Shown: positions 48,272 to 64,000 of the stretch, one piece after another
Position numbering within the stretch: position 1 is the first letter of the stretch
Layout: each line of letters begins with the position of its first letter
Source of the DNA: Catelliglobosispora koreensis DSM 44566
Lineage (GTDB): Bacteria > Actinomycetota > Actinomycetes > Mycobacteriales > Micromonosporaceae
DNA: 64,000 nucleotides
Direction: 5' to 3'
Assembly (NCBI RefSeq): GCF_000379685.1
Contig: NZ_KB903253.1
Location: forward strand, 62,001-126,000
The notes under the pieces: model-generated
Told to the model about the DNA's origin: nothing
Databases searched by the model: none
What the model saw: the letters and a program-made list of their open reading frames with translations, nothing else
Translations under genes and position numbers: made by a program

Positions 48272-49129
48272 TTAATTGCCGTCGTTGCCGGCCCACTTGG
48301 TTAGCCACCGCGGGTCGGGCTCGACCGACTTCGGCAGGAAGCGGAGGTCGACGGACATGCGCATCGCGTCGGTCTGGGTGTCGAGCGACGCGTGCACCAG
48401 GTGAGGCGAGTGGATGGCGACGTCGCCGGCCTTGTAGTCGGCGTAGAGCCAGCGGCCGCCGAGTTGTTCCTGGGTCCAGCCGAGGTCATGGCTGATGGGG
48501 CGCAGGTCGCCGGAGCGGTCCGTGCGCTTGCCCTTGAGCACGTCTAGCTTGGACTTCTCGATGGTGTGTGAACCCTCGAGGTAGGTCAGGCCGCCGGACT
48601 CAGGCGGGCAGTCGCCGATGGGGAGCCACATGGTGATGATGCTGGCGGAGCCGCGGTCCATGTAGTCGAAGTCGGTGTGTGCGCGCGAGGACAGCGGGCC
48701 CTTGTTGAAGTGGCGCACGATCTGGCGCGGCAGCTGGAAGACCTCGTCCTCGCCGAGCAGGATCTGCGCGAGGTTGGCCAGCTCGGGTGAGGCGGCGAAG
48801 TCCTCGAAATACGGCGAGCGGACCAGTGTGTGAGCCGGGTGGCCTTCGACGCCGTGGGGCAGGGCGTTGGCCGGCGCGGAGCCGGACCAGATGCCCGCGG
48901 AACGATCGGTGCCGGAGGCGAAGTAGGCGTCGTCGAACATGCCGAAGTAGTGGCCGCGCAGGTTGATGACCTTCTCGCGGTCGAGCACTCCGCGCAGGTA
49001 GACGTAACCGTCCTGCTGGAAGCGGTCCCGCAGCGCAGCGGGGTCGTTCAGCAGAGCTGTGCTGTCCTGCATCGGTGCAAAGTGCTCGGAGTCGGTTGGA
49101 ACGGGAACCCCGTTCGAAAGAACCTGCAT
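48272..49129 (-). CDS. PhyH-family Fe(II)/2-oxoglutarate dioxygenase
   Basis: 285 residues. The metal triad is visible: His151-x-Asp153 in RAHTDFDYM, with the distal histidine in IHSPHLVHASLD (most likely His246), and Arg257 nearby for 2-oxoglutarate. It would hydroxylate an unactivated carbon. It ends a run of sugar-nucleotide genes, 36 bp after the aminotransferase fusion, so the substrate may be the sugar or its N-acyl group. This is inferred from context only. Confidence 0.85.
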   Translation of the reverse strand: MQVLSNGVPVPTDSEHFAPMQDSTALLNDPAALRDRFQQDGYVYLRGVLDREKVINLRGHYFGMFDDAYFASGTDRSAGIWSGSAPANALPHGVEGHPAHTLVRSPYFEDFAASPELANLAQILLGEDEVFQLPRQIVRHFNKGPLSSRAHTDFDYMDRGSASIITMWLPIGDCPPESGGLTYLEGSHTIEKSKLDVLKGKRTDRSGDLRPISHDLGWTQEQLGGRWLYADYKAGDVAIHSPHLVHASLDTQTDAMRMSVDLRFLPKSVEPDPRWLTKWAGNDGN

Positions 49130-49165
49130 TACCTCAGTCCTTCGCTTGTGTTGCCGGCTTGCGGG

Positions 49166-50992
49166 TCAGGATAGAACACTACGCAGGGCGTTTAGAACAT
49201 GCTCCTGCTCACGGGTCGTCATTGACGGGAACGCGGGCAGGCAAATGTGGTGTTTCGTAAACCAGAGTGCCTTTTCAAAGGTCCGGCCCTCGAAACGTGA
49301 AGCGTAGTAAGGCTGGTCGCTCAGCAGCACGTCGTAGACCTCGCCAGCCAGGGAGACGCCGTGCTTTTCGCGCAGCTCCTTCTTCAGCTCAGCGCGGTCG
49401 ATCGACGGGTCGAGGAACGCCATGTACTTGTAGTAGTTGCTCTCGACGCCAGCCGGGATGTCGTAGCGCTTGACGTGCGGCACCGTGTTGAGGTGCTCGT
49501 CGTACCAGCTGGCCAGGGCGCGGCGCATCTCCAGCAGCTCGTCGAGCCGGGCGAAGTGGGCCAGGCCGACCGCCGCGTGGACCTCGCTGAGCCGCCAGTT
49601 GTTGCCGAGGCGGTCGTGGATGTTCTGCGAAATCGAGATCTTGCCGTGGTCACGCAGCTTGCGGGCGGCGTCGCGGTGCTCGGCCGAGACAGCCGTGAAC
49701 AGGCCTCCTTCGCCGGAGGTCGCGACCTTAGCCGGGTGCAGGCTGTAAGTTCCCATGGCGCCAAAGGATCCGGCGAGCTGACCGTCCAAAGAGGCGCCCA
49801 GTGCGTGCGCGGTGTCCTCGATGACCGGGATGCCGCGCGCCTGACACTCCTTGAGCACCTCGCGGAACGACGGCGCGACGATGCCACCGATGTGCACGAC
49901 CGCCACGGCGGCGACGTCGTCGTGCTTTTCCAAAGCAGACCGCAGCGCGATCGGGTCCATACCGAAGCCGTCGAGCTCGATATCGACGAATTCCACCTTG
50001 CCGCCATTGCGCTCCACCGAGGCCGCGGTGGCGAAGAACGTGTTGACTGGTACCAGGACCGTGCGCCCCGTGACGTTGAGCAGCTGGTAGGCGATATCCA
50101 ACGCCGCCGTCCCCGTGGACACCGCGATCGTGTCATCGGAACCGGTGAATTTGTTGGCTAGCTTCTCAAACTTGCCGACGAGCTGACCCTGGGTCAGCAT
50201 CCCGCTGGCGAGCACCTGGTCGAGGTTGTCGGCCACTTCTACACGGGCCGAGATGTCGAAGAGCACCTTCAGCGGCGGAATGCTGAACTTCGCCTCAGTG
50301 GCGAAGGCGGCCTTGAAGAAGTCGACGGTCGGCCCGCCAACGGTCAGCGGGCCGTCGCCATAGGCGGCCGTAACCGTCTCGTGCGCGGACCGCAAATACA
50401 ACGGGCGCGGGGCGAGCGCCGCCACGAGGTCGGGCAGATCGGCCACCCGCAGGATGCCCGGCAGGGCAAGGTAACCGCTGTTGAGGTAAGGCTGAACTGG
50501 CAGCTCAAAGGCGACCGGCTCGGAGCCGCCGAGCACGAGTGCCGCGTGCAGAGCGGTTTCGCCGCCAGCCAGACCGATCTGGTTGATCCCACCGTCGCTT
50601 AGCCACTCCCGCACCGCGAGCACATCGTCAACGGCGGCAGCCAGAACTGACCGTCCATTGAGGACAAGCTCTTGCTCACGCTCAGGGGCGACCGTTGCCG
50701 GCATGCTCACCGAGATGAGCCCATCGCCAAGCGGTGCCCCAGAATCGACGCCAATCACGGCCGGGTAGATGGCGGTGTCGTCAGGGCGGCGAACGCTCAC
50801 TGAGAAAGCCGTGCCATCGGGACGCCGCAGTGAGTATTGCTCCTCGCGCCAGCCACGCTGCGTTTCCGTCGACGTGAGCGTGGGCACCAGGGCCACCCGG
50901 GCCGGCAACGCGAGACGCTGAACCGCCGCGCGCACGCTGTTGGCCCAGGGACGCACATCGCTGCCGGACTGGAACTGATACTGAGGTGCCAC
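49166..50992 (-). CDS. Fusion of a degenerate alpha/beta-hydrolase domain and a DegT/DnrJ/EryC1 aminotransferase
   Basis: 608 residues from the GTG at 50992. Residues about 30-220 resemble an acetyl-esterase-like alpha/beta hydrolase (DDVLAVREWL, then ALAPRPLYLRSAHE), but the nucleophile elbow reads G-L-A-G-G (140-144) with no Ser, so it is probably inactive. Residues about 240-608 form a complete DegT aminotransferase with PLP-binding Lys422 in HPAKVATSGEGG and IEDTAHALGA. The enzyme would aminate a keto-sugar nucleotide. Upstream in-frame sequence to 51238 only shadows galE. Confidence 0.85.
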   Translation of the reverse strand: MAPQYQFQSGSDVRPWANSVRAAVQRLALPARVALVPTLTSTETQRGWREEQYSLRRPDGTAFSVSVRRPDDTAIYPAVIGVDSGAPLGDGLISVSMPATVAPEREQELVLNGRSVLAAAVDDVLAVREWLSDGGINQIGLAGGETALHAALVLGGSEPVAFELPVQPYLNSGYLALPGILRVADLPDLVAALAPRPLYLRSAHETVTAAYGDGPLTVGGPTVDFFKAAFATEAKFSIPPLKVLFDISARVEVADNLDQVLASGMLTQGQLVGKFEKLANKFTGSDDTIAVSTGTAALDIAYQLLNVTGRTVLVPVNTFFATAASVERNGGKVEFVDIELDGFGMDPIALRSALEKHDDVAAVAVVHIGGIVAPSFREVLKECQARGIPVIEDTAHALGASLDGQLAGSFGAMGTYSLHPAKVATSGEGGLFTAVSAEHRDAARKLRDHGKISISQNIHDRLGNNWRLSEVHAAVGLAHFARLDELLEMRRALASWYDEHLNTVPHVKRYDIPAGVESNYYKYMAFLDPSIDRAELKKELREKHGVSLAGEVYDVLLSDQPYYASRFEGRTFEKALWFTKHHICLPAFPSMTTREQEHVLNALRSVLS

Positions 50993-51008
50993 GGAGACAG
51001 ACCCTTTC

Positions 51009-51989
51009 TTAAGCGGACAGTTCCAGCGCTTTCCGCGCTGACCAAGCGGAAGAAACCATGTCCATGAGATCGCGCTGAGCCGACCAGCCGAGGTCGGTGC
51101 GGATGCGCTCGACGGAGGCCACCACCGAGGCGGGGTCACCGGGGCGGCGTGGGCCAACCGTGTACGGAACCTCTTCGCCCGTGACCTCACGCAGTGCCGC
51201 CAGCACATCAAGCACGGAGTAGCCCTGCCCGGTGCCAACGTTGTAGAAGTCAGCGGCGGCGCCCTTGTTCAGCCGCTCGACCGCGGCGACGTGAGCGTCG
51301 GCGAGGTCGGCGACGTGAATGTAGTCGCGCACACCGGTGCCATCGTGGGTGTCGAAGTCGTCGCCCGTCACCAGGGCCGGCTTGCCAGCGGCGAAGGCCC
51401 GGAAGATGAGCGGGAACAGATTGGAGATGCCGCGATCGGCCAGGGCCGGGTCATCGGCGCCGACGGCGTTGAAGTAACGCAACGCCAGCCACGAGATCCC
51501 GTGCGCCTCGCCCGCCGCGCGCACCATCTGCTCGCAGATGAGTTTGGTGTGCCCGTAGGGATTGATGGGCGCCGTTGGCGTGTCCTCGGTGACGATCGGG
51601 TCCTGCACCATGCCGTAAACGGCGGCGGTGCTGGAGATGACGATCTTCTTCACCCCGGTTTCGACCATTGCCCCGAGGAGGCTGGTCATGCCGCCAAGGT
51701 TCTCGCGGTAGTAGAGGATCGGGTCAGCCATCGACTCGGGCACGGACTTCTTCGCCGCGAAGTGGATGACTCCAGTGACTTTGTGCTCACGCAACGCTTC
51801 GGCGACGGCCGCAAGGTCCTGCACCGCGGCGTTCACGAACGGCACCCCGTCAGGAACGCGGTGCGCCAGCCCACTGGACAGATCGTCGAGCACGACAACC
51901 GCGTGCCCCTGCGCGTGCAACCGGGCGACGGTGTGCCCGCCGATATAACCGGCACCGCCCGTGACTAGCCAAACGTCCTTCTCGGTCAC
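51009..51989 (-). CDS. galE: UDP-glucose 4-epimerase-like NAD-dependent epimerase
   Basis: 326 residues. The nucleotide-binding motif is GGAGYIGGH, and the catalytic Ser/Tyr/Lys set lies in SSTAAVYG and YGHTK. IHFAAKKSVPES and the C-terminal GWSAQRDL block are GalE features. It interconverts UDP-Glc/UDP-Gal or the N-acetyl forms, supplying sugars for the glycan. The GTG start overlaps the preceding glycosyltransferase stop by 4 bp. Confidence 0.9.
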   Translation of the reverse strand: MTEKDVWLVTGGAGYIGGHTVARLHAQGHAVVVLDDLSSGLAHRVPDGVPFVNAAVQDLAAVAEALREHKVTGVIHFAAKKSVPESMADPILYYRENLGGMTSLLGAMVETGVKKIVISSTAAVYGMVQDPIVTEDTPTAPINPYGHTKLICEQMVRAAGEAHGISWLALRYFNAVGADDPALADRGISNLFPLIFRAFAAGKPALVTGDDFDTHDGTGVRDYIHVADLADAHVAAVERLNKGAAADFYNVGTGQGYSVLDVLAALREVTGEEVPYTVGPRRPGDPASVVASVERIRTDLGWSAQRDLMDMVSSAWSARKALELSA

Positions 51990-52978
51990 TTGTTAAGCAC
52001 CTGCCGATACACCTCGAGGACACGCTCAGCCACCTGTTCGGAGCTGAACCATGCGTTTTGTTCCCGCCCATTTGAGCGGCTGCCCGCCGCCAGCACATCA
52101 GCCGTGCGGTCAGCCAGTAAGCGGATCAGTTTAGCCTTGGCTTCTTCATCGCCCCAAGGCTCTGGAAAATCAACGATTTCTGACGGCTCGACGCCATTGA
52201 GCAGCTTCTCCGCGTCGCCAACGTTGACGCTGACCACGGGAAGGTTCATCGCCGTCGCCTCTTTGATGACACTCGGCGAACCCTCAGAGCCTTTGCGTGA
52301 CGTGAACAGCAGCACATCGGCCGCGTCGAACTTGCCCGGCACCGCCGCACGCGGCTGGTTCGGGCCGACGATCGTCAGCTCACGGGCGTTGATGCCGCGC
52401 TGCTGCAGCTCTTTGAGCACGGCGCTGTAGACGTCGTATCCCTTGACCCAGTTATCCGGGTGGCCACCGAACAAGACGACTCGTTCGCTTTCTGAAAAGC
52501 CGTAAAGGTCGCGGGCCGCCAGCCGGTCGCCCGGCTTGAACAGCTCGAAATCAACGCCGTCGGCGATGACCGTCCCGTTAGGCTCCCCCGCGTTGATGGC
52601 GAGGTTCTGCGAGACATAGATGCGCGCCGACACACCTTTGAGCCCGGCTTTAGTGAGCGCCCGCTGATAGCCGACGTTGATGTCACTGCCGTAGAGCGAA
52701 AGCACGCGGGGGACGGTGCCGCCCGCGAGCCGTGCGGCCAGAGCCGACATTCCATAGTGGACGTGCACGATGTCGTAGCGACCGCGCTTGAGCAAAGACC
52801 GGATCCGTTGCGCGGCAAGGAAGTAGTCCCCCTTGCCGCGTGCCTGCGCGACAACTTCGACGTCAACGTGCACACCGAGCCGCCGCAGCGCCTCGATCTG
52901 CTCCTTGACGAAGATGCCACGGAAGCTCTCACCAACCGGCCAGAGGTTGGTGACAGCCAGGACCCGAAGATTCGTCAT
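51986..52978 (-). CDS. Glycosyltransferase, family 4 (GT-B fold)
   Basis: 330 residues. AVTNLWPVGESFRGIFVKEQ is the N-terminal acceptor domain and YDIVHVHYGMSALAARL its GT4 signature. The donor domain has FGGHPDNWVKGYD and the E-x7-E-like segment GSEGSPSVIKEA. It transfers a sugar from a nucleotide donor on the cytoplasmic side of the membrane. The ATG overlaps the aminotransferase stop by 4 bp. Confidence 0.88.
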   Translation of the reverse strand: MTNLRVLAVTNLWPVGESFRGIFVKEQIEALRRLGVHVDVEVVAQARGKGDYFLAAQRIRSLLKRGRYDIVHVHYGMSALAARLAGGTVPRVLSLYGSDINVGYQRALTKAGLKGVSARIYVSQNLAINAGEPNGTVIADGVDFELFKPGDRLAARDLYGFSESERVVLFGGHPDNWVKGYDVYSAVLKELQQRGINARELTIVGPNQPRAAVPGKFDAADVLLFTSRKGSEGSPSVIKEATAMNLPVVSVNVGDAEKLLNGVEPSEIVDFPEPWGDEEAKAKLIRLLADRTADVLAAGSRSNGREQNAWFSSEQVAERVLEVYRQVLNK

Positions 52979-54099
52979 ACCGTCTCGAAGAAGCTCTTGA
53001 CCGTCGCGACGACCCGCTCCAGCTGCTCTTCGGTCAGCTCCGGGTAGATCGGCAGGGACAGGCACTCCTTGGCGTAGGCCTCGCCCACCGGGAAGTCGCC
53101 TTCCTTGTGCCCGAGGAACGCGTAGGCAGGCTGAAGGTGCAGCGGGATCGGGTAGTGGATGCCCGCCTCGACCTCGTTTTCCTTCAGGAAAGCCAGAAGC
53201 GCGTCACGGTGGTGCGTGCGCACGACGTAGTGGTGCATGACCGACACCTGGCCCGGCGTCACCGGCGGCAGCCGCAGGTCGCCAATGCCAAGCAGCGCTT
53301 GCGAATACAGCCCTGCGAGCTCACGCCGGCGCTGGTTGCCCGCGTCCAAAGTGGTCAGCTTGACGTTGAGCACCGCCGCTTGCAGGGTGTCGAGGCGATG
53401 GGCATAACCAACAATCTCATGGGAGTACTTGGTGGTGCGCCCGTGATCGCGCAGCATCCGCAGCTTCGCCGCGAAGTCGTCGTCGTTCGTCGTGATGCCA
53501 CCAGCGTCACCAAACGCGCCCAGGTTCTTGCCCGGGAAGAACGAGAAGCAGCCCGCGATGCCGTAACCACCGGCGCGCACGACGGTGCCGTCGGTCTTGA
53601 TGATCTCAGCGCCCTGAGACTGAGCGGCGTCCTCGATGACCGGCACGCCAGCGTCGGCGGCGATGGCCGAGATGGTCTCCATGTCGACCGGGCGGCCGTG
53701 AATGTGCACCGGCATGACCGCGGAAACGCCGTCCATCAAGCCTTTCAGCTCGGCCGGGTCCATGTTGCCGGTCTCGGGGTCCACGTCGATGAAGCGGGGC
53801 TTGGCGCCCAGCCAGCTCACCGGCTCAGCCGTGGCGATGAACGTGTGCACCGGCACCGCGACCTCATCGCCCGGGCCGATGCCCAGCGCGGCGAGCACCA
53901 GGTGCAGGGCGGCCGTTCCCGAGCCGACACCGATGGAGTGCTTGGTGCCGCAGAACGCGGCGTAAGCGGCGTCGAAGTCCTTGACTTCCTTGCCCTGAAT
54001 GAACCGGGTGTTGGTGACGACCTCTTGGATGGCCGCGTCGATCTCGGCCTTCTGCCGGGCATAGCCCGCCTTGAGATCGACCAGGGGAATCTTAGACAC
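52975..54099 (-). CDS. DegT/DnrJ/EryC1/StrS-family sugar aminotransferase
   Basis: 374 residues, the family norm. PLP-binding Lys191 is in SFFPGKNLGAFGDAGG and the cofactor Asp in IEDAAQSQGA. It aminates a 3- or 4-keto-sugar nucleotide, with the keto-sugar probably made by the Gfo/Idh oxidoreductase (a WlbA-WlbE-like pair). It starts 9 bp after the lipoyl-acyltransferase stop, placing amination next to acylation. Confidence 0.92.
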   Translation of the reverse strand: MSKIPLVDLKAGYARQKAEIDAAIQEVVTNTRFIQGKEVKDFDAAYAAFCGTKHSIGVGSGTAALHLVLAALGIGPGDEVAVPVHTFIATAEPVSWLGAKPRFIDVDPETGNMDPAELKGLMDGVSAVMPVHIHGRPVDMETISAIAADAGVPVIEDAAQSQGAEIIKTDGTVVRAGGYGIAGCFSFFPGKNLGAFGDAGGITTNDDDFAAKLRMLRDHGRTTKYSHEIVGYAHRLDTLQAAVLNVKLTTLDAGNQRRRELAGLYSQALLGIGDLRLPPVTPGQVSVMHHYVVRTHHRDALLAFLKENEVEAGIHYPIPLHLQPAYAFLGHKEGDFPVGEAYAKECLSLPIYPELTEEQLERVVATVKSFFETV

Positions 54100-54108
54100 G
54101 CTTTACTC

Positions 54109-55227
54109 CTACTTGCTCCGGGCCGGGACGACGGTGGTCGTCACAACCTTGGTCTTCACGACATGGTCTGCGGGAACAGAACGGACAATGGTCGCTCCGG
54201 ACGCCACTTGAACCCGGTCTCCCAGCTCGACGCCGGGTTCAATGTGTATACCGGTGCCCAGCCGCACCTGGTTACCCAACTTGACCCGCGAAGAGGTCAG
54301 GTTTCCAGGACCGGTTGAGCAGTCGTTCGCGATCACGTTGTGATGGTCGAACGAGTTGTATGCCGAGAAGAAGTTGTTGTCACCGATCTGCGCTTCGAAG
54401 CCGAAGTGGCAGAAGGCGCAGATGACGTTGCCGGTGCCGATGACGACGCCGGTCGCGATCTTCGAGGTGGGGTCGATCGCGTTAGCCAGCGGGATGCCGA
54501 GCTTTTCGCAGAGTTCACGGAACTTCTTGCGCGCGGCGACACTGGTGCTGATGGCGATGACCGCGGCGTCGAAAGCTTGCTCCTGCCACAGCGCGGCGAG
54601 CCGGTCCGGACCACCGACGACGGGCACGCCGACGACGTCGCTTCCCCACTTGTCGCGCTTGTCATCGAGAACCGCGACGGCCTGCTGTGTCGTTGACCCG
54701 GCGAAGATGTCGATGACCTGGGTCGCCCCGAGTCCGCCACCGATCAGCAGAACCCGCTGCACGCCTTCTTTTGTTTGCAACGGCCGTGGCAGGTCGCTGT
54801 AGTCCACCGGCTGGATAGCGGCGAACGCGGCCTCAACGTCTTTGACCGTAATCAGATGCGAACTGTCCAGTGTGGACAGATCGATGCCGAGCTCTTCGGC
54901 TCGCTGGATCGCCTTGAGGCTCGCGCGCGGGCCTTCGGCCTTCAGCGCTTCGCGTTGCGCGGCAAGGGCCGCCTCGTGTGCCTTGAGCGCGTCGAGGTCA
55001 TCGAAGAGCAACGCGACGGGAGCCGTCAGCGTGATCTCGTCCTTGACGTTGGCCAAGTGCAGGACGTAGCCGCTGTCCGGCGCGGTGACTTCGAGAACCG
55101 CTTTGCTGGTCTCGACTTCGGCCAGATCGGCGCTAGCGTCCACCCACGCGTGGTTGTCGGCGAACCAGGCCACGACAACGCCATGCTCACTGTTCACGTC
55201 GGGCGTGGGAATGATGACCGGCTTCAC
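54109..55227 (-). CDS. Lipoyl domain + E1/E3-binding domain + PglD/NeuD-type acyltransferase fusion
   Basis: 372 residues. Residues 1-76 form a lipoyl domain with Lys42 in the canonical VETSKAV. Residues about 102-136 match a peripheral subunit-binding domain (ASLKAIQRAEELGIDLS, then LITVKDVEAAF). Residues about 157-255 form the PglD/NeuD Rossmann-like domain (VLLIGGGLGATQVIDIFAG), and about 256-365 a left-handed beta-helix with the catalytic-type His in NSFDHHNVI. The first two domains are the front half of an E2; its usual catalytic domain is absent. GTG at 55227 overlaps E1-beta by 4 bp. Biotin instead of lipoate is less likely given adjacent E1 genes. Confidence 0.9.
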   Translation of the reverse strand: MKPVIIPTPDVNSEHGVVVAWFADNHAWVDASADLAEVETSKAVLEVTAPDSGYVLHLANVKDEITLTAPVALLFDDLDALKAHEAALAAQREALKAEGPRASLKAIQRAEELGIDLSTLDSSHLITVKDVEAAFAAIQPVDYSDLPRPLQTKEGVQRVLLIGGGLGATQVIDIFAGSTTQQAVAVLDDKRDKWGSDVVGVPVVGGPDRLAALWQEQAFDAAVIAISTSVAARKKFRELCEKLGIPLANAIDPTSKIATGVVIGTGNVICAFCHFGFEAQIGDNNFFSAYNSFDHHNVIANDCSTGPGNLTSSRVKLGNQVRLGTGIHIEPGVELGDRVQVASGATIVRSVPADHVVKTKVVTTTVVPARSK

Positions 55228-56207
55228 TTGGCGGCCTCCCGGATGGCGGTTTCGATCTGCGGCGAGCCGACGAGCATGCGGCCTTCCTTGGCACGTGAGG
55301 ACGGAATGACAGTCTTCTCGCTGGCGACGACACTCACCGGGCGGCGCAGCAACCCGAACAGGCGCTCCGACATGACCGCGGAAACCTCGGTGCCCCAGGA
55401 CCAGCCCGCCGTGCCTTCTTCCACCGTGACAAGGCTTCCCGTCGCCTTGGCGGACACCTCTACCGGAGCCCAGTCCATCGGCGACAGTTCGGCCGGGACG
55501 AGCAGCTCGACGAAGATTTCCTCTTCCACCGCGAGCTTTTCCACGATGTCGGCGGCCAGCCCGGCCTGATAGCCGTAGGCCAAAACCGTTGCGGTGCAAT
55601 CCTCGCGGGGCACAGCTGACAGGCGAACCGTTGAGCCTTCTCGTGTGGTGATAAGGCCGTTGGGTGCGAGCCGCATGTGCTGCGGGTAGAGGAGTTTGTG
55701 CTCGACGTAAAGCACAGGGGTGTTCTGGCTCAAAAAGTCACGGAACGCATCACGCGGGTCATGGAAGAGACTTGCCGCGACAACCCTTAGATGGGGTACT
55801 CCGAAGAAATGCTTTTCCAGGCTCTGGCTGTGCGTCGGGCCGTAACCCCGGTGCCCACCGCTCGGCACCCGGAACACCGCCGGGCACGTGGCTTTGCCGT
55901 TGTACATCGCCTCGTATTTGGTGATGTGATTGACGATCTGGTCGAAGCACAGCGTGATGAAGTCGCCGAACATGACTTCGGCGATCGGGCGCATCCCGGC
56001 GAGGGCCAGGCCGGCCGAGAACCCGGCGATGGCACCCTCGGAGATCGGCGTCGTGCGCACCCGCGACGGAAAGTCCGTCGATAGTCCCCGGGTCACCTTG
56101 AACGCCCCGCCATAGGGGTCGATGATGTCTTCCCCGATCAGCACGACCCGCTCATCGGTCTCCAGGGATTCGCGCAGTGCGGCGCCAAGCTCTTTAGCGA
56201 AAATCAC
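55224..56207 (-). CDS. 2-oxoacid dehydrogenase E1 beta subunit
   Basis: 327 residues, the standard length. GEDIIDPYGGAFKVTRGL, PISEGAIAGFSAGLALAG and VPSGGHRGYGPTHSQSLE are E1-beta landmarks, and the C-terminal transketolase domain has FVELLVPAELSP and VEEGTAGWSWG. With E1-alpha it decarboxylates a 2-oxoacid and acylates the lipoyl group. The GTG start at 56207 overlaps E1-alpha by 4 bp. Confidence 0.92.
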   Translation of the reverse strand: MIFAKELGAALRESLETDERVVLIGEDIIDPYGGAFKVTRGLSTDFPSRVRTTPISEGAIAGFSAGLALAGMRPIAEVMFGDFITLCFDQIVNHITKYEAMYNGKATCPAVFRVPSGGHRGYGPTHSQSLEKHFFGVPHLRVVAASLFHDPRDAFRDFLSQNTPVLYVEHKLLYPQHMRLAPNGLITTREGSTVRLSAVPREDCTATVLAYGYQAGLAADIVEKLAVEEEIFVELLVPAELSPMDWAPVEVSAKATGSLVTVEEGTAGWSWGTEVSAVMSERLFGLLRRPVSVVASEKTVIPSSRAKEGRMLVGSPQIETAIREAAK

Positions 56208-57337
56208 GGCAGCGCCCTCGCCTTCGCGACAATGCCTGCCAGCTCTTCTTCCACCGACGCGTCGATCGCCTGCCAGTCGGCTTCGGCGAGCCGCTGACGG
56301 TGCACGGCAAGCGGTTCGGTCTGCCAGCGCAGCGCGACTTCCTCCTCGGGACGGTGATCGTCGCTTTTGGAGTGATGGCACAGCCGGTAAGTGTGGATGA
56401 CCAAAACGTGGGTCTTGCCGGTGGTGCGCACGGCTTCGACGAGTTCTTCGGCGTGCGAGCTGATTTCCAAGACGTCCGTGGATTCCACTTCGGACACTGG
56501 CAATCCGAAAGCTTCGAACCGCGCCCGCATGCTGCCCGCGGTGTTCAGCGCGACCGGCGTGGACTGGGCCCACTCGTTGTCTTCCAGCACGATCAGCAAC
56601 GGCAGCTCCCACAGCGACGCCATGTTCAGCGTCTCGTAGACAGCACCTTCCCCCAGCGTCCCGTCACCCATGAACACGACACTGATCGTGTCTTCGCCCT
56701 TGAGTTTCTTCGCCAGGGCGATCCCTGCCGCGGTCGGCAAAATGCCCCCTTGCACACCGTTGGACATGAAGCCCTCGGCGCAGATGTGCTGACTGCCACC
56801 GATTCCGGCGCAGACACCGGCTTCCTTGCCCATGATCTCGGCCATCAAGCCCAGGGCATCGCCCGTCCAAGCGAGATAGTGGCCGTGACAGCGGTGGTTG
56901 CTGAAGATGTGGTCGCCCTCGCGCAGATGCTCGATGACCCCGGCGGCGTCGGCTTCCTGCCCGATGCACGCGTGCGTGGTGCCGTTGAGGATGCCTTCCT
57001 CAAACAGGCCAAGCAGTGTCTCCTCGAAGCGGCGGATGAACCGCATTCCCCGGTAGAGCCCCAACTCCCGCGAACCCGCTACCACTGTTTGCCGTGTTAC
57101 CCACGCCGCGCCTTCTGCCGCAACCGCGCTTTCAGCCGCGGCCTCGCTTTCGTTGACGGCCGCTTCCTGGCTGAGCGTTGCTGCTTCACCTTCACCGAGC
57201 GGGACTGTCACGGCTTTGCTGAGCGTCGTGGCGCCGGTGATGGCCGCTTCGGGCTCGGCCGGAAGCGGGATTGCCGGCGCTGCCGGGTTCTCCTTCTCCG
57301 GTTCCGGGCTCAGGAAGTTGGGCAGGGTGATCGTCAT
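56204..57337 (-). CDS. 2-oxoacid dehydrogenase E1 alpha subunit with Ala/Glu-rich N-terminal extension
   Basis: 377 residues. The conserved core starts near residue 92. The TPP motif is GDGTLGEG (224-231) ending in EDN at 252-254, and NHRCHGHYLAW and IGGSQHICAEGF are typical of PDH/acetoin E1-alpha. Residues about 12-80 are a low-complexity Ala/Glu/Pro segment, unusual for E1-alpha and reminiscent of E2 linkers. The substrate (pyruvate or branched 2-oxoacid) cannot be read off. The ATG overlaps the Gfo/Idh stop by 4 bp. Confidence 0.9.
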   Translation of the reverse strand: MTITLPNFLSPEPEKENPAAPAIPLPAEPEAAITGATTLSKAVTVPLGEGEAATLSQEAAVNESEAAAESAVAAEGAAWVTRQTVVAGSRELGLYRGMRFIRRFEETLLGLFEEGILNGTTHACIGQEADAAGVIEHLREGDHIFSNHRCHGHYLAWTGDALGLMAEIMGKEAGVCAGIGGSQHICAEGFMSNGVQGGILPTAAGIALAKKLKGEDTISVVFMGDGTLGEGAVYETLNMASLWELPLLIVLEDNEWAQSTPVALNTAGSMRARFEAFGLPVSEVESTDVLEISSHAEELVEAVRTTGKTHVLVIHTYRLCHHSKSDDHRPEEEVALRWQTEPLAVHRQRLAEADWQAIDASVEEELAGIVAKARALP

Positions 57338-58353
57338 TGGACGGTCCCGATATCGATGCGGGCGCCATCGGCGTGCAGCGAACGGTCGACCGCCTCGAGC
57401 ACGGCGACGGTCCGCGCACCGTTCCATCCGTCGACGTCGGGACGGCGGCCCGTGTCCACGCACTCAATGAAGTGGCGCAGCTCGGTCGACAGCGGCTCGA
57501 CCATCGGCAGCGACGGCACGTGCATGGCCCCATCGCGCAGGCGGTATTGGTAGGCGCCGTAAGCGTCAGGGTCGAGGCGATCGGCGCCCTTGTCGAAGAT
57601 CTTCAGGCGGCCGTCTTGGTCCATGTCGTCATAGACCAGCATCTTCTTGGAGCCCACCACGGTGGTGCGGCGGGTCTTTGACGGGTCGAGCCAGCTCACG
57701 TGCATATGCACGAGGACGCCGCCCGGGTAGGAGGCGGTCACGAACATGACGTCGTCAACCGTGTCATTGAGATAGCGAGCCCCGCGAGCGGACACCCATT
57801 GGGGCGACGAGCCGAGCAAGTAGTTCGCGATCGAGACGTCGTGCGGCCCGATCGACCAGAAAGCATTGATGTCGCTCTGGATCCGGCCCAGGTTCAGCCG
57901 CTGCGAGTGCAGGTAAAGCACCTCACCGATCTCGCCAGAGTCGATGTATTCCTTCATCGCGCGCACGGCCGGGTTGAACTCGAACGTGTGACCCACCATC
58001 AGGGTCACGCCCTTTTCGTCGGCGGTGCGGGCCAGCTCGACGGCGTCTTCAGTAGACAACGCGAGCGGCTTTTCCACGAAGACGTGCTTGCCAGCGGCCA
58101 GGGCCCGGCGCGCTAGCGGGGCGTGCGAGGCCGCCGGGGTCGCGACGATGACCGCGCTGACCTGATCGTCAGCCAGCACCGCGTCAAGATCGTCGGTCAC
58201 GTTCACCTGCGGGTAAAGCGAGGCCGCCTTCTCGCGCCGCTCCGGCGACAGGTCCACCAGGTAACGCCAGCGTGGCCCGGCCAGGGTGCCCAGGTTCCGG
58301 GCGAGGTTTGGCCCCCAGTACCCAAAACCAATCTGGGCGAATCCACCCGTCAT
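57334..58353 (-). CDS. Gfo/Idh/MocA-family sugar oxidoreductase
   Basis: 339 residues. The N-terminal Rossmann motif is GFGYWGPNLARN, and the catalytic Lys95 is in the FVEKPLAL signature. NLGRIQSDINAFWSIGPHDVSI in the C-terminal domain is typical of nucleotide-sugar dehydrogenases of the WlbA type. It likely oxidises C3 of a UDP-sugar to supply the ketone for the aminotransferase. Overlaps both neighbours by 4 bp. Confidence 0.9.
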   Translation of the reverse strand: MTGGFAQIGFGYWGPNLARNLGTLAGPRWRYLVDLSPERREKAASLYPQVNVTDDLDAVLADDQVSAVIVATPAASHAPLARRALAAGKHVFVEKPLALSTEDAVELARTADEKGVTLMVGHTFEFNPAVRAMKEYIDSGEIGEVLYLHSQRLNLGRIQSDINAFWSIGPHDVSIANYLLGSSPQWVSARGARYLNDTVDDVMFVTASYPGGVLVHMHVSWLDPSKTRRTTVVGSKKMLVYDDMDQDGRLKIFDKGADRLDPDAYGAYQYRLRDGAMHVPSLPMVEPLSTELRHFIECVDTGRRPDVDGWNGARTVAVLEAVDRSLHADGARIDIGTVQ

Positions 58354-59792
58354 GTCCGATCCACCTCTCTGCCTTCAGACGCGACCGCGCCAATGGTGCC
58401 CGCTGAACTCAGCAGTGCCCAGCCGAAGCCCAGCACCGAGAACATAAGCGGCGGAAAGAGCGGGTCCTCAAGTGAGGGTGACCACGCCGCGATAACCACC
58501 GCGAAAATCACCGTACCGGCTGCCCAGAGCGGGAAAGTCCCGCCCCTGTCCCGCCAGGCCGACCGCACTAGTGGCGCCACCATCAGGCCCAGCCAGACCA
58601 GATAGGCCAATATGCCGAGCGCTCCCGCTTCCACGAGTAAATGGAGCCAGAACATGTCGACCGAGGTCGCCTCGAAGTTGAGCTTGTCGAAGCCTTTGCC
58701 GCCGAGCACTTCAACGAACCGAGGGTCTTCATTCCACGCTGGGTCGGCTTTAACCGCGACGATGCCGCCAAATTGGCCGACGCCGTAACCCAGCACCGGG
58801 CTCGCCGCCCACAACTTGGCGCCCTGCTTGGCGTAAAGGATGCGGATTTCCTGGTCATTGCTGGTCTGCGGCTTGCCCCATTTGATGCCTAGGGCGTTGA
58901 ACAGCCCTTCGAAGCGGTACGACAGCTGATAGCGCACTTCTGGGGAGAAGGCCATGGGCGCGCCGCCGATCACGGCGACGATGAGCCCTAGAGCGATCGC
59001 CCGCTTGAACCGGCCGCGCCGCAACACCGCGATGACCCCGAGCCCGGCCACAGCGGCCAGCAGCGAGTGTTTCGAGCTGGCAACCGACAGACCGGCCGCG
59101 ATCAAGACGAACAGCGCCCACCAGCGCCGCTTCATGTTCTCGCGGCTGAGCATCCACGCGGCGAGTCCCAGGACCATCAGGCCGGTCACGTGGCCGAGAT
59201 CGTTTGGGTGCGGCAGGAATCCCTGTGCCCGGCCCTCATCGGCCCACTGCAGATTCGGCCAGCCGACGGCGGTGTAAGCCGAACGGCCCGCCAGGAACTG
59301 CCACAAGGCCGCTAAGACGTTGAGCACCACGAGCCCGCCCCCGAGCCAGAACAGCGGGCGCGCCTGCTCCCAGCTCGGCTTCAGGGCGCGCCAGGCGTAA
59401 AAGACGATGGCGCCGCGGAAATAGACGAACAGCGCCTGGCCGATCAAGGTGGCCGACGACCCGCCAGCCAGCCCTGCCGCGATGAGAACCAACGCGAGCA
59501 CCGCGAGCGCTATGTCCACTTTGGAGCGCAGCATGCCCCAGGAGCGATCGATGGTGAGTTTGGCCACGGTCACGCCGAACAGCGCGAAGTAGATCACGCT
59601 TTTGAGGGTTTTAGGCCACCCTGCCTCATCGATGACTGTTTTCTGGGTACCCGCGTTGAAATGGCTCGAACCAAAGATGGTGACGAGCCATCCTTCGGCC
59701 ATGACCAGCACAAGGAGTAAGCCCAGAAGGACAAAGATCGATTTCCCCAGCAAGGTGGCGGCACTACGCGTAGCTACACCGCTCGACTGCAC
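58350..59792 (-). CDS. O-antigen ligase/polymerase-like membrane protein (Wzy/WaaL type)
   Basis: 480 residues with about 12 helices. The large extracytoplasmic loop (about 290-385) carries SPVLGYGVGQFGGIV, the common motif of the Wzy_C/O-antigen ligase family. It polymerises or transfers lipid-linked glycan outside the membrane. GAGGAG precedes the GTG at 59792. The 92-bp gap (59793-59884) to the flippase contains no obvious signal. Confidence 0.87.
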   Translation of the reverse strand: MQSSGVATRSAATLLGKSIFVLLGLLLVLVMAEGWLVTIFGSSHFNAGTQKTVIDEAGWPKTLKSVIYFALFGVTVAKLTIDRSWGMLRSKVDIALAVLALVLIAAGLAGGSSATLIGQALFVYFRGAIVFYAWRALKPSWEQARPLFWLGGGLVVLNVLAALWQFLAGRSAYTAVGWPNLQWADEGRAQGFLPHPNDLGHVTGLMVLGLAAWMLSRENMKRRWWALFVLIAAGLSVASSKHSLLAAVAGLGVIAVLRRGRFKRAIALGLIVAVIGGAPMAFSPEVRYQLSYRFEGLFNALGIKWGKPQTSNDQEIRILYAKQGAKLWAASPVLGYGVGQFGGIVAVKADPAWNEDPRFVEVLGGKGFDKLNFEATSVDMFWLHLLVEAGALGILAYLVWLGLMVAPLVRSAWRDRGGTFPLWAAGTVIFAVVIAAWSPSLEDPLFPPLMFSVLGFGWALLSSAGTIGAVASEGREVDRT

Positions 59793-59884
59793 ACCAGCTC
59801 CTCATCCCGCAGCACCGACCCGCCAGACGTGCGCGAAAAGGACGCTAGCAGCCAGGTCTTGGGCGGTGCAAACCTATCGTTTAG

Positions 59885-61321
59885 TCACCGGCGGTGACGG
59901 AGGATGTCCCTAATGTCCTTGTAGAGCACAACGACAGCCGCCGCACCAGCGATAAGTGCGCCGATGACACTCGGTATCCACCCGTCTTTGAGGAATTGTG
60001 CGATCGCCACGGCGAGGGCAATAGCCAGCACTGAGCGGATCACTGGGCCATACCAGGCGAGCTGATGCCGGCGGGCGATGACCACGAGTGGCCACGCCGC
60101 ACTGACGACGGCGGCCAGCAAATAGGAAGCTCCCACGCCCAGCCCGCCGATCCAGATGCCGAGCGGCACAGCGGCGATCACAGCCGCGAACCAGCCCACG
60201 ACCGCCGACCCTACGGGAATCCGCACATCGCGAGCGTCCCCACTGGACAGTGCGTTCACGGCACCTACTTGCGACACCATGAAGAAGCTCGCGACGAGGA
60301 GCGCTTGCAGAACCGTGGCGCCAGCCGCGTATTCGGCCCCATAGAGCGTGCTGAGGACCGGCTGCGCCAGCACCACGGCCACGGCGAAAAGAGGTGCCAG
60401 GAGGACGAACAGCGCCCGGGTCGTCAGATCGGCGTGCCGCTTGACGGTCTCCGCGTCGCCGGCTCCGTGCGCGTGCGCCATCGCCGGGAACAAAGCCATG
60501 CTGAGCGCCCGCGGCAAGAAGTAAAGCGGAGCGACGAGCGCGACGGATACCCCGAAGTAGGCCACCTCTTGCTGGGACGTGACGATCTCAGCGATGACCG
60601 GCAGGGCTTGCAGCAGACCGGCACTGGCGAAGCCGCCAAGGCTGGCCAGGCCGACGAAGCCCCAGATCTCACGTCTTTCCGCCGCCGATACCAGGGACAC
60701 CGGTGCTTTGGGCTGGCCCCGGCGCAACATGAACCACGCGCCGAAGATGAGAACGGTGTAGCCGAGCGCTAGCGGAAGTAGATAGGCCGTCCACCCCGCC
60801 GACACGACAAGGATCATCAGGCCGATGGCGACGACCGAGCCCGCCAGCTCCAGCCGGACGTATCCAGCGACCCGGTCGAAACCGTAGAGCGCCTGTTTCT
60901 CAATGCTGTAAAGGGAGAAGGCCAGCGTCAGTAAACCCGTGGCCGCCGCGTCCGCGATGGACGCTCCCCACAGGTAGATCCCCGCGCCCGTGAGCAAGGA
61001 CAGCAGCACCGACGCCAGGAGCCCGGCCCGCGAGATGAGGCGGTAAACCGCTTGTGCGGTAAGCGAGTTTCCCCGTCCTAAGTGGAACGGGATGAACTTG
61101 CCGGCCGCGCTCGATAGACCGCCGGGCAGGAAGAGACCGGCCATCATCGTCGCACCGATCATGACGCTCACCTGCGCCACGATCTCCTTGGTGGTGGCGT
61201 GCGCCAGCAGCAGGTTGTGCACGAGCCGCGTCACGCCGAGTGCCGCGATGGCCAGCATTGACAGCAAGCTCGTCCTGATGACCGTGCCGGAACGCCTGTT
61301 CACGACGGCGGCCTCAGCCAC
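59885..61321 (-). CDS. Wzx-like polysaccharide flippase (MOP superfamily)
   Basis: 478 residues with about 14 helices. LFLPGGLSSAAGKFIPFHLGRG and PLYFLPRALSMALFPAMAHAHG are typical of oligosaccharide flippases. It should move a lipid-linked repeat unit across the membrane for the Wzy/WaaL-like protein. The GTG at 61321 overlaps the end of the upstream glycosyltransferase by 8 bp. Confidence 0.88.
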   Translation of the reverse strand: MAEAAVVNRRSGTVIRTSLLSMLAIAALGVTRLVHNLLLAHATTKEIVAQVSVMIGATMMAGLFLPGGLSSAAGKFIPFHLGRGNSLTAQAVYRLISRAGLLASVLLSLLTGAGIYLWGASIADAAATGLLTLAFSLYSIEKQALYGFDRVAGYVRLELAGSVVAIGLMILVVSAGWTAYLLPLALGYTVLIFGAWFMLRRGQPKAPVSLVSAAERREIWGFVGLASLGGFASAGLLQALPVIAEIVTSQQEVAYFGVSVALVAPLYFLPRALSMALFPAMAHAHGAGDAETVKRHADLTTRALFVLLAPLFAVAVVLAQPVLSTLYGAEYAAGATVLQALLVASFFMVSQVGAVNALSSGDARDVRIPVGSAVVGWFAAVIAAVPLGIWIGGLGVGASYLLAAVVSAAWPLVVIARRHQLAWYGPVIRSVLAIALAVAIAQFLKDGWIPSVIGALIAGAAAVVVLYKDIRDILRHRR

Positions 61322-62504
61322 GGCGCAGGGCCGCCATCCGGTCGATGACGTCGTAGTAGTGCTCCCGCTGATAGCGCCATGTGCGCCCGGTCATGACTTC
61401 CCGGGCGCGCTCGGCTTGGATGCGTGCCTTCTCCGGTTCGCGGATGAGACGCAGCATCGCTTCACGCAGGTTCTCCGGGCTGGCGGGATCGACGAAAGTC
61501 ACCGCGTCATCCGGGAAGTAGTGCTCGATGGTCGGATTGCGGAACGTGATCACCGGGATGCCCATCACGGCGTATTCCATCAGCTTGTTCGGCAGGACAT
61601 TGGCGGTCCACGGGTCGAGCTGACTCGCCAGGATGCCAACGTGAATCTTGTCCAGCTCGCGCGTCATCTCGTTGATGGGCAACAGTTTCGTGGGCAGTTG
61701 CACGGCGTCACTGAGGTCTAGCTCGGTGACTCGCTCGCGCAATGGCGTGATGCCATCGCCGCTGCCCCACACGCGCATCTTGGCGGCGGGTGCTTCCGCG
61801 TGCACCATCTTGAGCGCTTCGGCGACCTGCACCAAGCCGTGCCTTGGCGCGATAAGGCCGTGATAACCGAAGACGACTTCGCCACCGGGCTCCCAGCCCT
61901 TCCACGGGCGAGCCTGGAAGTGGCGGTCGTCCGGGCAATTCATCACCGTCGTCACGCGCGTGCTGGTCATCGACCGCAGCATCTCCGCGTATTTCTCGTG
62001 CGGGCTTAGTACCTCGTTGGCGAATTTGAACGAGGCACGCTCGCTGAAGCGCACCGCGGCCATGAGGGCGTTCTTGTTCTCGAACTTGGAGGAGAACAGT
62101 TCAGAGGTCAGGTCGTGGACGTCGAGCACCACGGGCACCCGCAGCGCACGCTGCCACGTCGCCGAGAACACCAGCGCTTCAGGCATGGAGTGGGCCTGAA
62201 CGACGTCGAACTTGCGGCCCCAGCGCACCATCCGCGCCGCGGCACGGGCCGCGAAACCGCCGTAGAGCTTGATGTAGGACATGCTGGACTCGCCGCGGTA
62301 CTTCTGCGTCGGCAGGTGAACGACTTTCACTCCGTCGATCATCTCGACCTCGGGCCTGCCCGGGGAGTGCAAAGCGAGCACGGTAACTTCGTCACCGCGC
62401 TCAACGAGGGCTTCAGCTTGCCGTCGCACTCGCGCGTCCGACTCGTACTCGCTGATGACGAGCATGCCCACGCGCACTGGGCGCCGCTGCGTTGCTTCCA
62501 CCAC
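61314..62504 (-). CDS. Glycosyltransferase, family 4 (GT-B fold)
   Basis: 396 residues from GTG 62504 (62501 also possible). Acceptor-domain motifs are SEYESDARVRRQAEALVERG and FDVVQAHSMPEALV. The donor domain has GYHGLIAPRHGL and PWTANVLPNKLMEYAVMGIP, the E-containing nucleotide-sugar site. This is the first gene of the cluster; it begins 28 bp after the AidB-like gene, with no clear promoter between, so read-through is possible. Upstream in-frame codons lie inside that gene. Confidence 0.88.
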   Translation of the reverse strand: MVEATQRRPVRVGMLVISEYESDARVRRQAEALVERGDEVTVLALHSPGRPEVEMIDGVKVVHLPTQKYRGESSMSYIKLYGGFAARAAARMVRWGRKFDVVQAHSMPEALVFSATWQRALRVPVVLDVHDLTSELFSSKFENKNALMAAVRFSERASFKFANEVLSPHEKYAEMLRSMTSTRVTTVMNCPDDRHFQARPWKGWEPGGEVVFGYHGLIAPRHGLVQVAEALKMVHAEAPAAKMRVWGSGDGITPLRERVTELDLSDAVQLPTKLLPINEMTRELDKIHVGILASQLDPWTANVLPNKLMEYAVMGIPVITFRNPTIEHYFPDDAVTFVDPASPENLREAMLRLIREPEKARIQAERAREVMTGRTWRYQREHYYDVIDRMAALRRG

Positions 62505-62532
62505 GCGAGGATAGCGCCTCGGCGTTTGTTCG

Positions 62533-64000
62533 CTAGCGTGCCCCAAATGCCCGGTCTGTGATCGCGGAGGCAGGGGTGCCCGGCGGCAGCGTGCCGAAGA
62601 CACCGCTCCAGTCCCCTTCCAGGCGTGTGGCGCAGAACGCGTCAGCGATGTCGGCAGGAGCCTGGCGCACGAGCAGCGAACCCTGCAAACACACCGCCAT
62701 GAGCGCTGTGATGCGCCGGGCACTGGACTGATCCGCCGTCAGCAGCAAGGTTTGCAGCCGCTTGACGGCAGCGTCCAAACGCGCGTCAGCGCCCTCGGAC
62801 AGCGCCAGCTCGGCGAAGAAAGCCGAAACGCTCTCGGGCTGCTTTGCCATGGCACGCAACGTGTCTAGCGCGATGACGTTGCCCGAGCCCTCCCAGATGG
62901 AGTTCAGCGGTGCTTCGCGGTAGAGCCGGGGCAGGCCGCTGTCTTCGACATAACCGTTGCCGCCCAGGCATTCCAGAGCTTCAGCGGCGACCATCGGCCC
63001 GCGCTTGCACACCCAGAACTTGCCCACCGCGGTGGCGAGCCGTCCAAACGCGACTTCGCCGGTGTCCACCGCGTTGGCCAGGCGCAGCATCAACGCCGTG
63101 GCCGCTTCGCTTTCCACGGCTAAATCGGCGAGCACACTGGTCATGGCGGGCTGGTCGACGAGCAGCTCCCCAAAAGCGCGGCGGTGCCGGGCGTGGTGGA
63201 TCGCCTGCACGAGCGCGGCACGCATGAGCCCGGCCGAGCCGATGACACAGTCGAGCCGTGTCATCTGGACCATCTCGATGATGGTGGCGACGCCCCGGCC
63301 TTCCGGGCCGGCCCGCCACGCGACGGTGTCGTCAAACTCCACTTCGGACGAGGCGTTGGACCGGTTGCCCAGCTTGTCTTTCAAGCGCTGCAAGCGAAAC
63401 GTGTTGCGGGTGCCGTCGGGCAGCACACGGGGCAGCAGGAAACACGTCAGCCCACCGGGCGCTTGCGCGAGCACCAGGAACACATCGCTCATCGGTGCCG
63501 AGCAGAACCACTTATGCCCGGTCAGCAAATAGTGATCGCCCGTGGGCACAGCCCGCGTCGTGTTGGCGCGAACGTCGGAGCCGCCTTGCTTCTCCGTCAT
63601 CGCCATGCCAGCGATGAGACCGTCCTTTTCCAAAGGCGGGCGAAGCCCGAAATCGTAGGTACGGCTTGCCAGCTTCGCCTCGTACAAGGACGCGAGCGAC
63701 GGCTCGTGCCGCAACGCGGGCAGGATCGCATAGGTCATCGAGATCGGACAGCCATGGCCCGCTTCCACTTGTGCCCCAAGGTAAGCCAGTGCCGCGCGCT
63801 TGACATGACTTCCGCCAGCCGCCCACGGCGCCCCGGCGGCACCGGCTTCGACCGCGCGGCGCATCAGCTCGTGCCAGGCCGGATGGAACTCGACTTCGTC
63901 GATGCGGTTGCCGAAGCGGTCATGGGTGCGCAGCACGGGTGGGTAGGAGTGCGCGAGCCGCGCCAGCTCCTGGGCCTGCTCCGAGCCGAAGAAGCTGCCA
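62533..64000 (-). CDS. AidB-like acyl-CoA dehydrogenase (partial, runs off window end)
   Basis: At least 489 codons. The frame continues past 64000 with sequence upstream of RTHDRFGNRIDEVEFHPAWHELM. The AidB features are AMTEKQGGSDVRANTT (substrate- and FAD-binding loop), HKWFCSAPMSD and ECLGGNGYVEDSGLPRLYREAP, the last containing the Glu of the active site. AidB proteins are FAD-dependent and linked to alkylation damage; many actinobacterial homologues may be true acyl-CoA dehydrogenases. Confidence 0.9.
   Translation of the reverse strand, partial: GSFFGSEQAQELARLAHSYPPVLRTHDRFGNRIDEVEFHPAWHELMRRAVEAGAAGAPWAAGGSHVKRAALAYLGAQVEAGHGCPISMTYAILPALRHEPSLASLYEAKLASRTYDFGLRPPLEKDGLIAGMAMTEKQGGSDVRANTTRAVPTGDHYLLTGHKWFCSAPMSDVFLVLAQAPGGLTCFLLPRVLPDGTRNTFRLQRLKDKLGNRSNASSEVEFDDTVAWRAGPEGRGVATIIEMVQMTRLDCVIGSAGLMRAALVQAIHHARHRRAFGELLVDQPAMTSVLADLAVESEAATALMLRLANAVDTGEVAFGRLATAVGKFWVCKRGPMVAAEALECLGGNGYVEDSGLPRLYREAPLNSIWEGSGNVIALDTLRAMAKQPESVSAFFAELALSEGADARLDAAVKRLQTLLLTADQSSARRITALMAVCLQGSLLVRQAPADIADAFCATRLEGDWSGVFGTLPPGTPASAITDRAFGAR

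Follow-up and report, generated by a model that had tools for sequence, protein, structure and literature searches.

In the textbook reaction, the acyl group formed by a 2-oxoacid dehydrogenase goes to coenzyme A (CoA), and the E2 components of pyruvate dehydrogenase (PDH), branched-chain 2-oxoacid dehydrogenase (BCKDH), and acetoin dehydrogenase have a catalytic domain of the PF00198 type. The acyltransferases PerB, PglD, PglB-ATD, and VioB (TIGR03570) are composed of a PglD_N-like part and a left-handed beta-helix, which forms a trimer in relatives. A precedent for beta-helix enzymes taking a thioester from a carrier protein is set by LpxA and LpxD, which receive the acyl group from a protein-bound arm, as acyl-acyl carrier protein, and not from CoA. 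Features of all these systems are joined in a protein of 372 amino acids from Catelliglobosispora koreensis DSM 44566, encoded on the minus strand (54109-55227, start codon GTG) of a 64,000-nucleotide stretch of contig NZ_KB903253.1, which is referred to as the window. Like the E2 components, this fusion protein shows a lipoyl lysine in an ETSKA motif, a segment resembling a peripheral subunit-binding domain (PSBD), and adjacent genes for E1-alpha and E1-beta, but its catalytic part is a NeuD/PglD-type beta-helix, and the expected acceptor is a sugar amine rather than CoA. It shares the PglD_N-like part, the beta-helix, and a histidine at the position of PerB H141 with the sugar acyltransferases, but adds the lipoyl and PSBD-like parts, and it differs from LpxA and LpxD in that its arm, a lipoyl domain, belongs to the enzyme's own chain and is expected to receive its acyl group from a 2-oxoacid through E1. 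The locus probably codes for a dedicated 2-oxoacid dehydrogenase whose E2 acylates an amino sugar instead of CoA. A lipoyl-fused sugar acyltransferase has apparently not been described: the initial annotation, made from the sequence alone, knew of no example, and literature searches, which had most subscription journals outside their reach, returned none either.

The fusion protein consists of a lipoyl domain (residues ca. 1-78), the PSBD-like segment (ca. 100-138), a PglD_N-like domain (ca. 158-240), and the left-handed beta-helix (ca. 246-358). The lipoyl domain read in the initial annotation, with Lys42 in its ETSKA motif, is recognized by the Pfam model Biotin_lipoyl (PF00364) at residues 7-59 with 23.2 bits (cut-off 22.1). 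Modification by biotin was rejected because the motif is ETSKA-like, as in lipoyl domains, rather than of the biotinyl type AMKM, and because E1 genes are nearby. The claim that a PglD/NeuD beta-helix takes the place of the usual E2 catalytic domain was likewise borne out, since the Pfam scan of the fusion gave a Hexapep match of 46.8 bits (cut-off 27) and no match to the chloramphenicol acetyltransferase (CAT)-like catalytic domain PF00198. In the best AlphaFold model (pLDDT 83.6, pTM 0.60; the four other models reached 66.8-73.4, from an alignment of 10 sequences), a beta domain in the lipoyl region is followed by a long helix, a two-helix segment (residues 104-138), an alpha/beta domain, and a regular beta-helix. 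Foldseek ranked PerB first and PglB-ATD next, with VioB and PglD within the top 20, and the match to PerB (4eab; E value 1.4e-14, TM-score by target 0.88) agrees with a PglD_N plus beta-helix fold. LpxA/LpxD-type structures were also matched (4ihf-4ihh), and their titles mention acyl carrier protein. His295 of the fusion corresponds in the profile alignment to PerB H141, the residue mutated in 4eaa and 4eab.

The fusion gene follows genes for E1-alpha, a thiamine diphosphate (ThDP)-dependent 2-oxoacid decarboxylase subunit (56204-57337, minus strand, start ATG; PF00676, 156.5 bits), and E1-beta (55224-56207, minus strand, start GTG; PF02779, 84.6 bits; PF02780, 55.7 bits). The three genes overlap by 4 bp each (56204-56207 and 55224-55227), and the gene for a DegT-family aminotransferase (52975-54099, minus strand; PF01041, 362.3 bits) starts 9 bp past the fusion gene, exactly as initially read. 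Another 4-bp overlap (57334-57337) links E1-alpha to an upstream gene for a Gfo/Idh/MocA sugar dehydrogenase (57334-58353, minus strand; PF01408, 86.1 bits). The DegT protein is the expected source of the amine acceptor; it scores 244 bits with the PseC model (cut-off 423.5 not reached), and the Gfo/Idh protein scores 147.1 bits with the UDP-GlcNAc 3-dehydrogenase model (cut-off 450). E1-alpha carries an Ala/Glu-rich N-terminal extension of ca. 85-90 residues and the motifs RCHG (from residue 149) and GDG...N (from residue 224), whereas E1-beta contains PISEGAI (from residue 54) and GPTHSQ (from residue 123). GDG...N is the ThDP motif. The top solved matches are human PDH E1-alpha (6cer, phmmer) and 1ik6, respectively; E1-alpha scores 138.7 bits against human PDH E1-alpha and 54.7 against BCKDH, which does not settle the acyl group. 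The initially proposed recycling of the lipoyl group by a housekeeping E3 fits the window, as its own genome carries E3 at two places above the TIGR01350 cut-off and LipA also above its cut-off.

The fusion recurs in other genomes, and because the searches scored few candidates per genome (4-8), the following counts are lower bounds. Full-length homologues were found in 17 of the 299 other genomes of the window's family, Micromonosporaceae (18 of 300 with its own). E1-alpha and E1-beta directly precede the fusion in all 17 of these loci, and a DegT homologue is always near, within 600 bp in 15 cases and ca. 4.4 kb away in two (L025, L028), while Gfo/Idh homologues are near in four. The phylum sample around the window contained matches in 5 of 396 genomes (its own included), among them near-full-length distant fusions in G442 (residues 27-359) and G474 (residues 32-357), taken as the genomes of L051 and L048, and two plain NeuD-like matches. 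The full fusion was present in 1 of 246 Planctomycetota genomes, the centre genome itself, and in 5 of 398 Pseudomonadota genomes, centre included. A scan of named genomes for ETSK[AS], an undercount since it employs a single pattern, matched 98 stretches in 32 loci; NeuD-type loci came from Gaiellaceae, other Thermoleophilia, Miltoncostaeaceae, a metagenome-assembled genome labelled Actinomycetes, Magnetococcales, Planctomycetaceae, and seven Micromonosporaceae, and the remaining 16 loci held other lipoyl proteins. Altogether, 31 NeuD-type fusions from Actinomycetota, Planctomycetota, and Pseudomonadota were examined: 18 of the Micromonosporaceae type, seven of the Thermoleophilia type (L048-L054), and L055, L056, and L180-L183. 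Since all 31 share the domain order, an annotation accident or assembly artefact was rejected, and the rare accident named in the initial annotation as a refuting case is ruled out; the fusion is real.

Whether such fusions always neighbour E1 genes, as had been asked at the outset, can be answered almost in the affirmative: E1 lies within ca. 1.2 kb of 29 of the 31, but is missing near L048 and L050. At L055, E1-beta alone is visible, the contig beginning there, and in the pseudomonadotal loci L180, L181, and L183 E1-alpha and E1-beta share one open frame of ca. 640 amino acids (domains checked for L180). In a tree of E1-beta sequences, those of the fusion loci are separated with 100/100 support from nine further copies in the same genomes; these nine are other, lower-scoring matches, a choice that favours separation. 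A housekeeping PDH paralogue was therefore rejected.

The residues kept and lost in the fusions distinguish them from plain NeuD proteins. All 31 fusions have the lipoyl lysine, and histidine occupies the H295 column in every one of them as well as in 57 of 57 plain sequences. The C-terminal GxP[AG] motif, absent from the window's fusion, occurs in 55 of 64 plain NeuD proteins versus 1 of 31 fusions (L055), being missing from the other 30; it was sought in the last 60 residues of the fused and the last 70 of the plain proteins, the latter in tblastn-guided frames (L088 dropped), and the Fisher p value for the contrast takes no account of relatedness. All nine plain sequences without the motif are counted in the 64, although L116 and L139 seem misread and L084-L086 and L089 do not look NeuD-like; L142, L164, and L171 are the real exceptions. 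After removal of the six doubtful sequences and of one row under 150 amino acids, the 57-row set shows alanine in column 343 in 54 plain and no fused sequences, and glycine in column 359 in 56 plain and one fused. In hexapeptide acetyltransferases, the GxPA end presumably lines the CoA site; if so, its loss suggests a remodelled donor site, as expected for an arm-bound donor. A beta-helix tree of 20 of the 31 fusions and the 57 plain sequences groups the window type, L180, and L181 together (100/100); the best tree contains four fusion lineages (four changes of the fused label), and its well-supported branches are compatible with one origin.

The surroundings of three pseudomonadotal relatives are consistent with an amino-sugar acceptor. 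The L183 operon includes sialic-acid genes and encodes a cytidylyltransferase, a NeuB-like protein (389.3 bits, cut-off 399.65), NeuC (417.4, cut-off 235.9), an E3 of its own (447.1, cut-off 408.8), a polysaccharide deacetylase, the E1-alpha-beta protein, the lipoyl-NeuD fusion, and an ATP-binding cassette exporter. L181, in a cluster of the pseudaminic type, combines PseB (559.7 bits, cut-off 407.75), PseC (506.1, cut-off 423.5), a cytidylyltransferase, and another DegT protein with E1 and the fusion, and L180 contains two flagellin genes, E1, the fusion, DegT, and a methyltransferase. A polysaccharide deacetylase gene is also found beside L025, and since both L025 and L183 have one, it may be speculated that an acetyl group is taken off and another acyl group put on.

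In the mechanism that we favour, E1-alpha/beta would act on a small 2-oxoacid, decarboxylating it and transferring the acyl group reductively to the lipoyl group expected on Lys42. The lipoyl domain would then swing over and present the acyl group to the catalytic site of the beta-helix, where His295 is predicted to act as the base activating the sugar amine, and the acyl group would pass, without free acyl-CoA, to the amine made by the Gfo/Idh and DegT pair on a nucleotide sugar. Housekeeping E3 would reoxidise the dihydrolipoyl group, and the N-acylated sugar would enter the polysaccharide of the surrounding Wzx/Wzy-like and glycosyltransferase genes. Direct transfer, inferred in the initial annotation, is supported by the E1 linkage (29 of 31), the invariant lysine and histidine, the lost GxPA end, and the contexts of L183, L181, and L180. 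It remains the best reading with two corrections, as the PSBD is divergent and the protein belongs to a wider family.

Several observations weigh against this reading. The initially assigned PSBD had no match to PF02817 in the window's fusion up to an E value of 1 (HMMER filters removing most above ca. 0.1), and the PSBD of the fusion family lacks the GTGxGGR loop seen in canonical ones. Residues 96-140 (54808-54942, minus strand) are nevertheless regarded as a divergent PSBD, because 29 fusion segments (27 NeuD-type, two Maa-like) aligned in hhalign at 96.6% (E value 5.7e-10) with four canonical PSBDs encoded in the window's own genome, the AlphaFold model shows two helices there, and L185 of the wider class described below passes PF02817 (25.0 bits, cut-off 23.7); L008, L055, and L077 gave matches below threshold. 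PglD_N (PF17836) is missed by one bit (22.4, cut-off 23.4), and the NeuD model TIGR03570 aligns to residues 159-358 with 114.3 bits, below its cut-off of 160.8. The PglD_N histidine, kept in 49 of 57 plain sequences, is found in 4 of 31 fusions, and the acceptor may thus differ from that of plain NeuD. No simple rule covers the GxPA end, an assumed CoA-site motif: GxPA-like ends are kept in L055 and in all four Maa-like fusions (L064, L077, L174, L175). Moreover, 18 of the 31 fusions are closely related to one another and a single origin is compatible with the supported branches, so that the losses of the motif may not represent separate events. In five of the seven Thermoleophilia-type loci, the E1 genes run on the opposite strand, with a sulfotransferase gene in between at L049; at L048 and L050, no E1 was found within 8 kb of the fusion, but these genomes have a related E1 next to another lipoyl fusion, of the Maa-like type. 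All seven Thermoleophilia-type loci have a sulfotransferase gene ahead of the fusion (by Pfam for two, tblastn for the rest), and no amino-sugar gene was recognized among the few genes scanned there. The same result came from a limited check of L182, where genes for major facilitator superfamily (MFS) and LuxR-type proteins are nearby. The initial interpretation as a whole is partly supported: its testable predictions at the genome level hold, as seen in the E1 linkage, the two invariant residues, E3 and LipA in the genome, and the amino-sugar clusters of some relatives.

These points also bear on the alternatives. The beta-helix might accept the acyl-lipoyl group but pass it to CoA, the system being a small acyl-CoA-forming dehydrogenase and the sugar being acylated by another enzyme. 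Ordinary E2s do use CoA, the cluster could require a special acyl-CoA, and the Maa-like fusions keep the GxPA end, but this end has gone from all but one of the 31 NeuD-type fusions while plain relatives retain it in 55 of 64 cases, PerB-type enzymes acylate sugars (titles of 4ea7 and 4eab), and no other acyltransferase appeared among the 12 further window genes scanned (48272-63936). As judged from searches with the fusion as query, which do not cover other acyltransferase types, a second NeuD-like match occurs among the family loci at L028/L063 only, and we regard transfer to CoA as unlikely. It is slightly less likely still that the acyltransferase uses acyl-CoA in the normal way, with the lipoyl and PSBD-like parts merely tethering it to E1/E3 or a dehydrogenase complex for channelling or regulation. 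The retained catalytic histidine and overall NeuD fold would agree with such an arrangement, whereas the E1 genes near 29 of 31 fusions, the lipoyl lysine in all of them, and the altered C-terminal motif speak against it.

E1-like pairs are known from sugar gene clusters for branched sugars, and E1 could add a two-carbon unit to a keto sugar here by an acyloin condensation, as for avilamycin-type branched sugars, the lipoyl-acyltransferase being a side partner. That reaction needs no conserved lipoyl fusion, yet the lipoyl lysine is invariant, and the L183 operon even supplies the E3 that a lipoyl cycle requires, which makes this explanation very improbable. Finally, the retention of the PglD_N histidine in 4 of 31 fusions, the sulfotransferase genes of the Thermoleophilia-type loci, and the lack of recognized amino-sugar genes in the limited checks there and at L182 would suit a target other than a sugar amine, namely a lipid, a peptide, or a hydroxyl group. 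Against this stand DegT genes near all 18 Micromonosporaceae-type fusions (window included) and at L180 and L181, the NeuB-like/NeuC pair of L183, and PseB/PseC of L181, and we give a target other than a sugar amine very little probability.

The front half of the fusion is shared with other lipoyl plus short-PSBD proteins (Maa-like, KASIII, and CAT types), the back halves of which differ and the E1-beta partners of which share its side of the E1 tree; NeuD-type and Maa-like partners group together in one supported clade. The front half is combined with a different hexapeptide acyltransferase bearing a C-terminal extension (Maa-like by eye, Maa/WbbJ-like) beside E1 in L064/L178 (L064:7983-9581), L077/L179 (L077:6875-8443), L174 (8067-9632), and L175 (5703-7274). 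In L185 (6362-7855; genome G797, Planctomycetota), it precedes a FabH-like beta-ketoacyl-acyl carrier protein synthase III (KASIII; ACP_syn_III, 83.5 bits; ACP_syn_III_C, 115.9 bits), with E1-alpha and E1-beta beside it. This KASIII fusion is rare (2 of 246 Planctomycetota genomes, G797 and G709, the two being 95% identical), but supports the favoured reading because the same front half is placed on another acyl-thioester-using enzyme. In L071, L184, and L178:1766-2935, it is attached to a 2-oxoacid_dh domain. E1 adjoins the proteins of this wider class, save L178:1766-2935, which is separated from the E1 genes of its locus by ca. 6 kb. The window's fusion is thus one of a family of lipoyl-armed acyltransferases and no single oddity. 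It appears about evenly balanced whether acyl-lipoyl serves more generally as a CoA-free biosynthetic acyl currency in several phyla, with a separate E1 lineage and a back half swapped according to the acceptor (NeuD, other hexapeptide, KASIII).

If the favoured reading is true, bacteria have re-aimed the lipoyl arm at other acceptors, so that a surface sugar would receive its N-acyl group straight from a 2-oxoacid, and E2 would be shown to be modular. Genome sequences would then help to predict which capsules and flagellar glycans carry unusual N-acyl groups, and inexpensive 2-oxoacids could be used to introduce acyl groups of choice.

The remaining genes of the minus-strand run, which reads Wzx-like, Wzy-like, Gfo/Idh, E1-alpha, E1-beta, fusion, DegT, glycosyltransferase, GalE, second DegT, and PhyH, code for a Wzx/MATE-like flippase (59885-61321; MurJ 26.2 bits, cut-off 27.4; MatE 25.2, cut-off 24.9), a Wzy-like polymerase/ligase (58350-59792; PF04932, 31.0 bits, narrowly missing the cut-off of 31.7), a glycosyltransferase (51986-53008; Glyco_transf_4/Glycos_transf_1), and the UDP-glucose 4-epimerase GalE (51009-51989; TIGR01179, 348 bits, cut-off 262.3). 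The second DegT protein (49166-51238, minus strand) has an N-terminal part weakly resembling alpha/beta-hydrolases (PF12715, 21.2 bits, cut-off 21) in one open frame, and matches to its two parts are also direct neighbours in L023 and L024. The L028/L063 locus (Micromonospora globbae) has additional DegT genes and another NeuD-like stretch beside the fusion, and an MFS exporter gene adjoins DegT in the two loci of genus g29 that were checked (L029, L035). A plasmid search with the window's fusion returned nothing at an E value of 1e-15, records close to the window's genome possibly being excluded, and a PHROGs search gave three weak families of unknown function.

Some further lipoyl-related proteins were noted in passing. 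The usual active-site motif of CAT-type E2s is DHRxxDG, but among the 17 CAT-type E2s that share the short PSBD, 12 read, by eye, DHR..NG instead (L065-L067, L069, L070, L074-L076, L078, L079, L184, and L178:1766-2935), while L068, L071, L072, L073, and L186 have D or E at this position; the DHR..NG proteins may have a non-CoA acceptor, too. The window's own genome encodes an E2 with two tandem PSBDs (L003, contig C41). Finally, a FabD-like acyltransferase encoded elsewhere in the window (17831-19003, plus strand) carries at its C-terminus a domain resembling biotinyl/lipoyl domains (21.7 bits, cut-off 22.1), from which the modifiable lysine is, by eye, absent.

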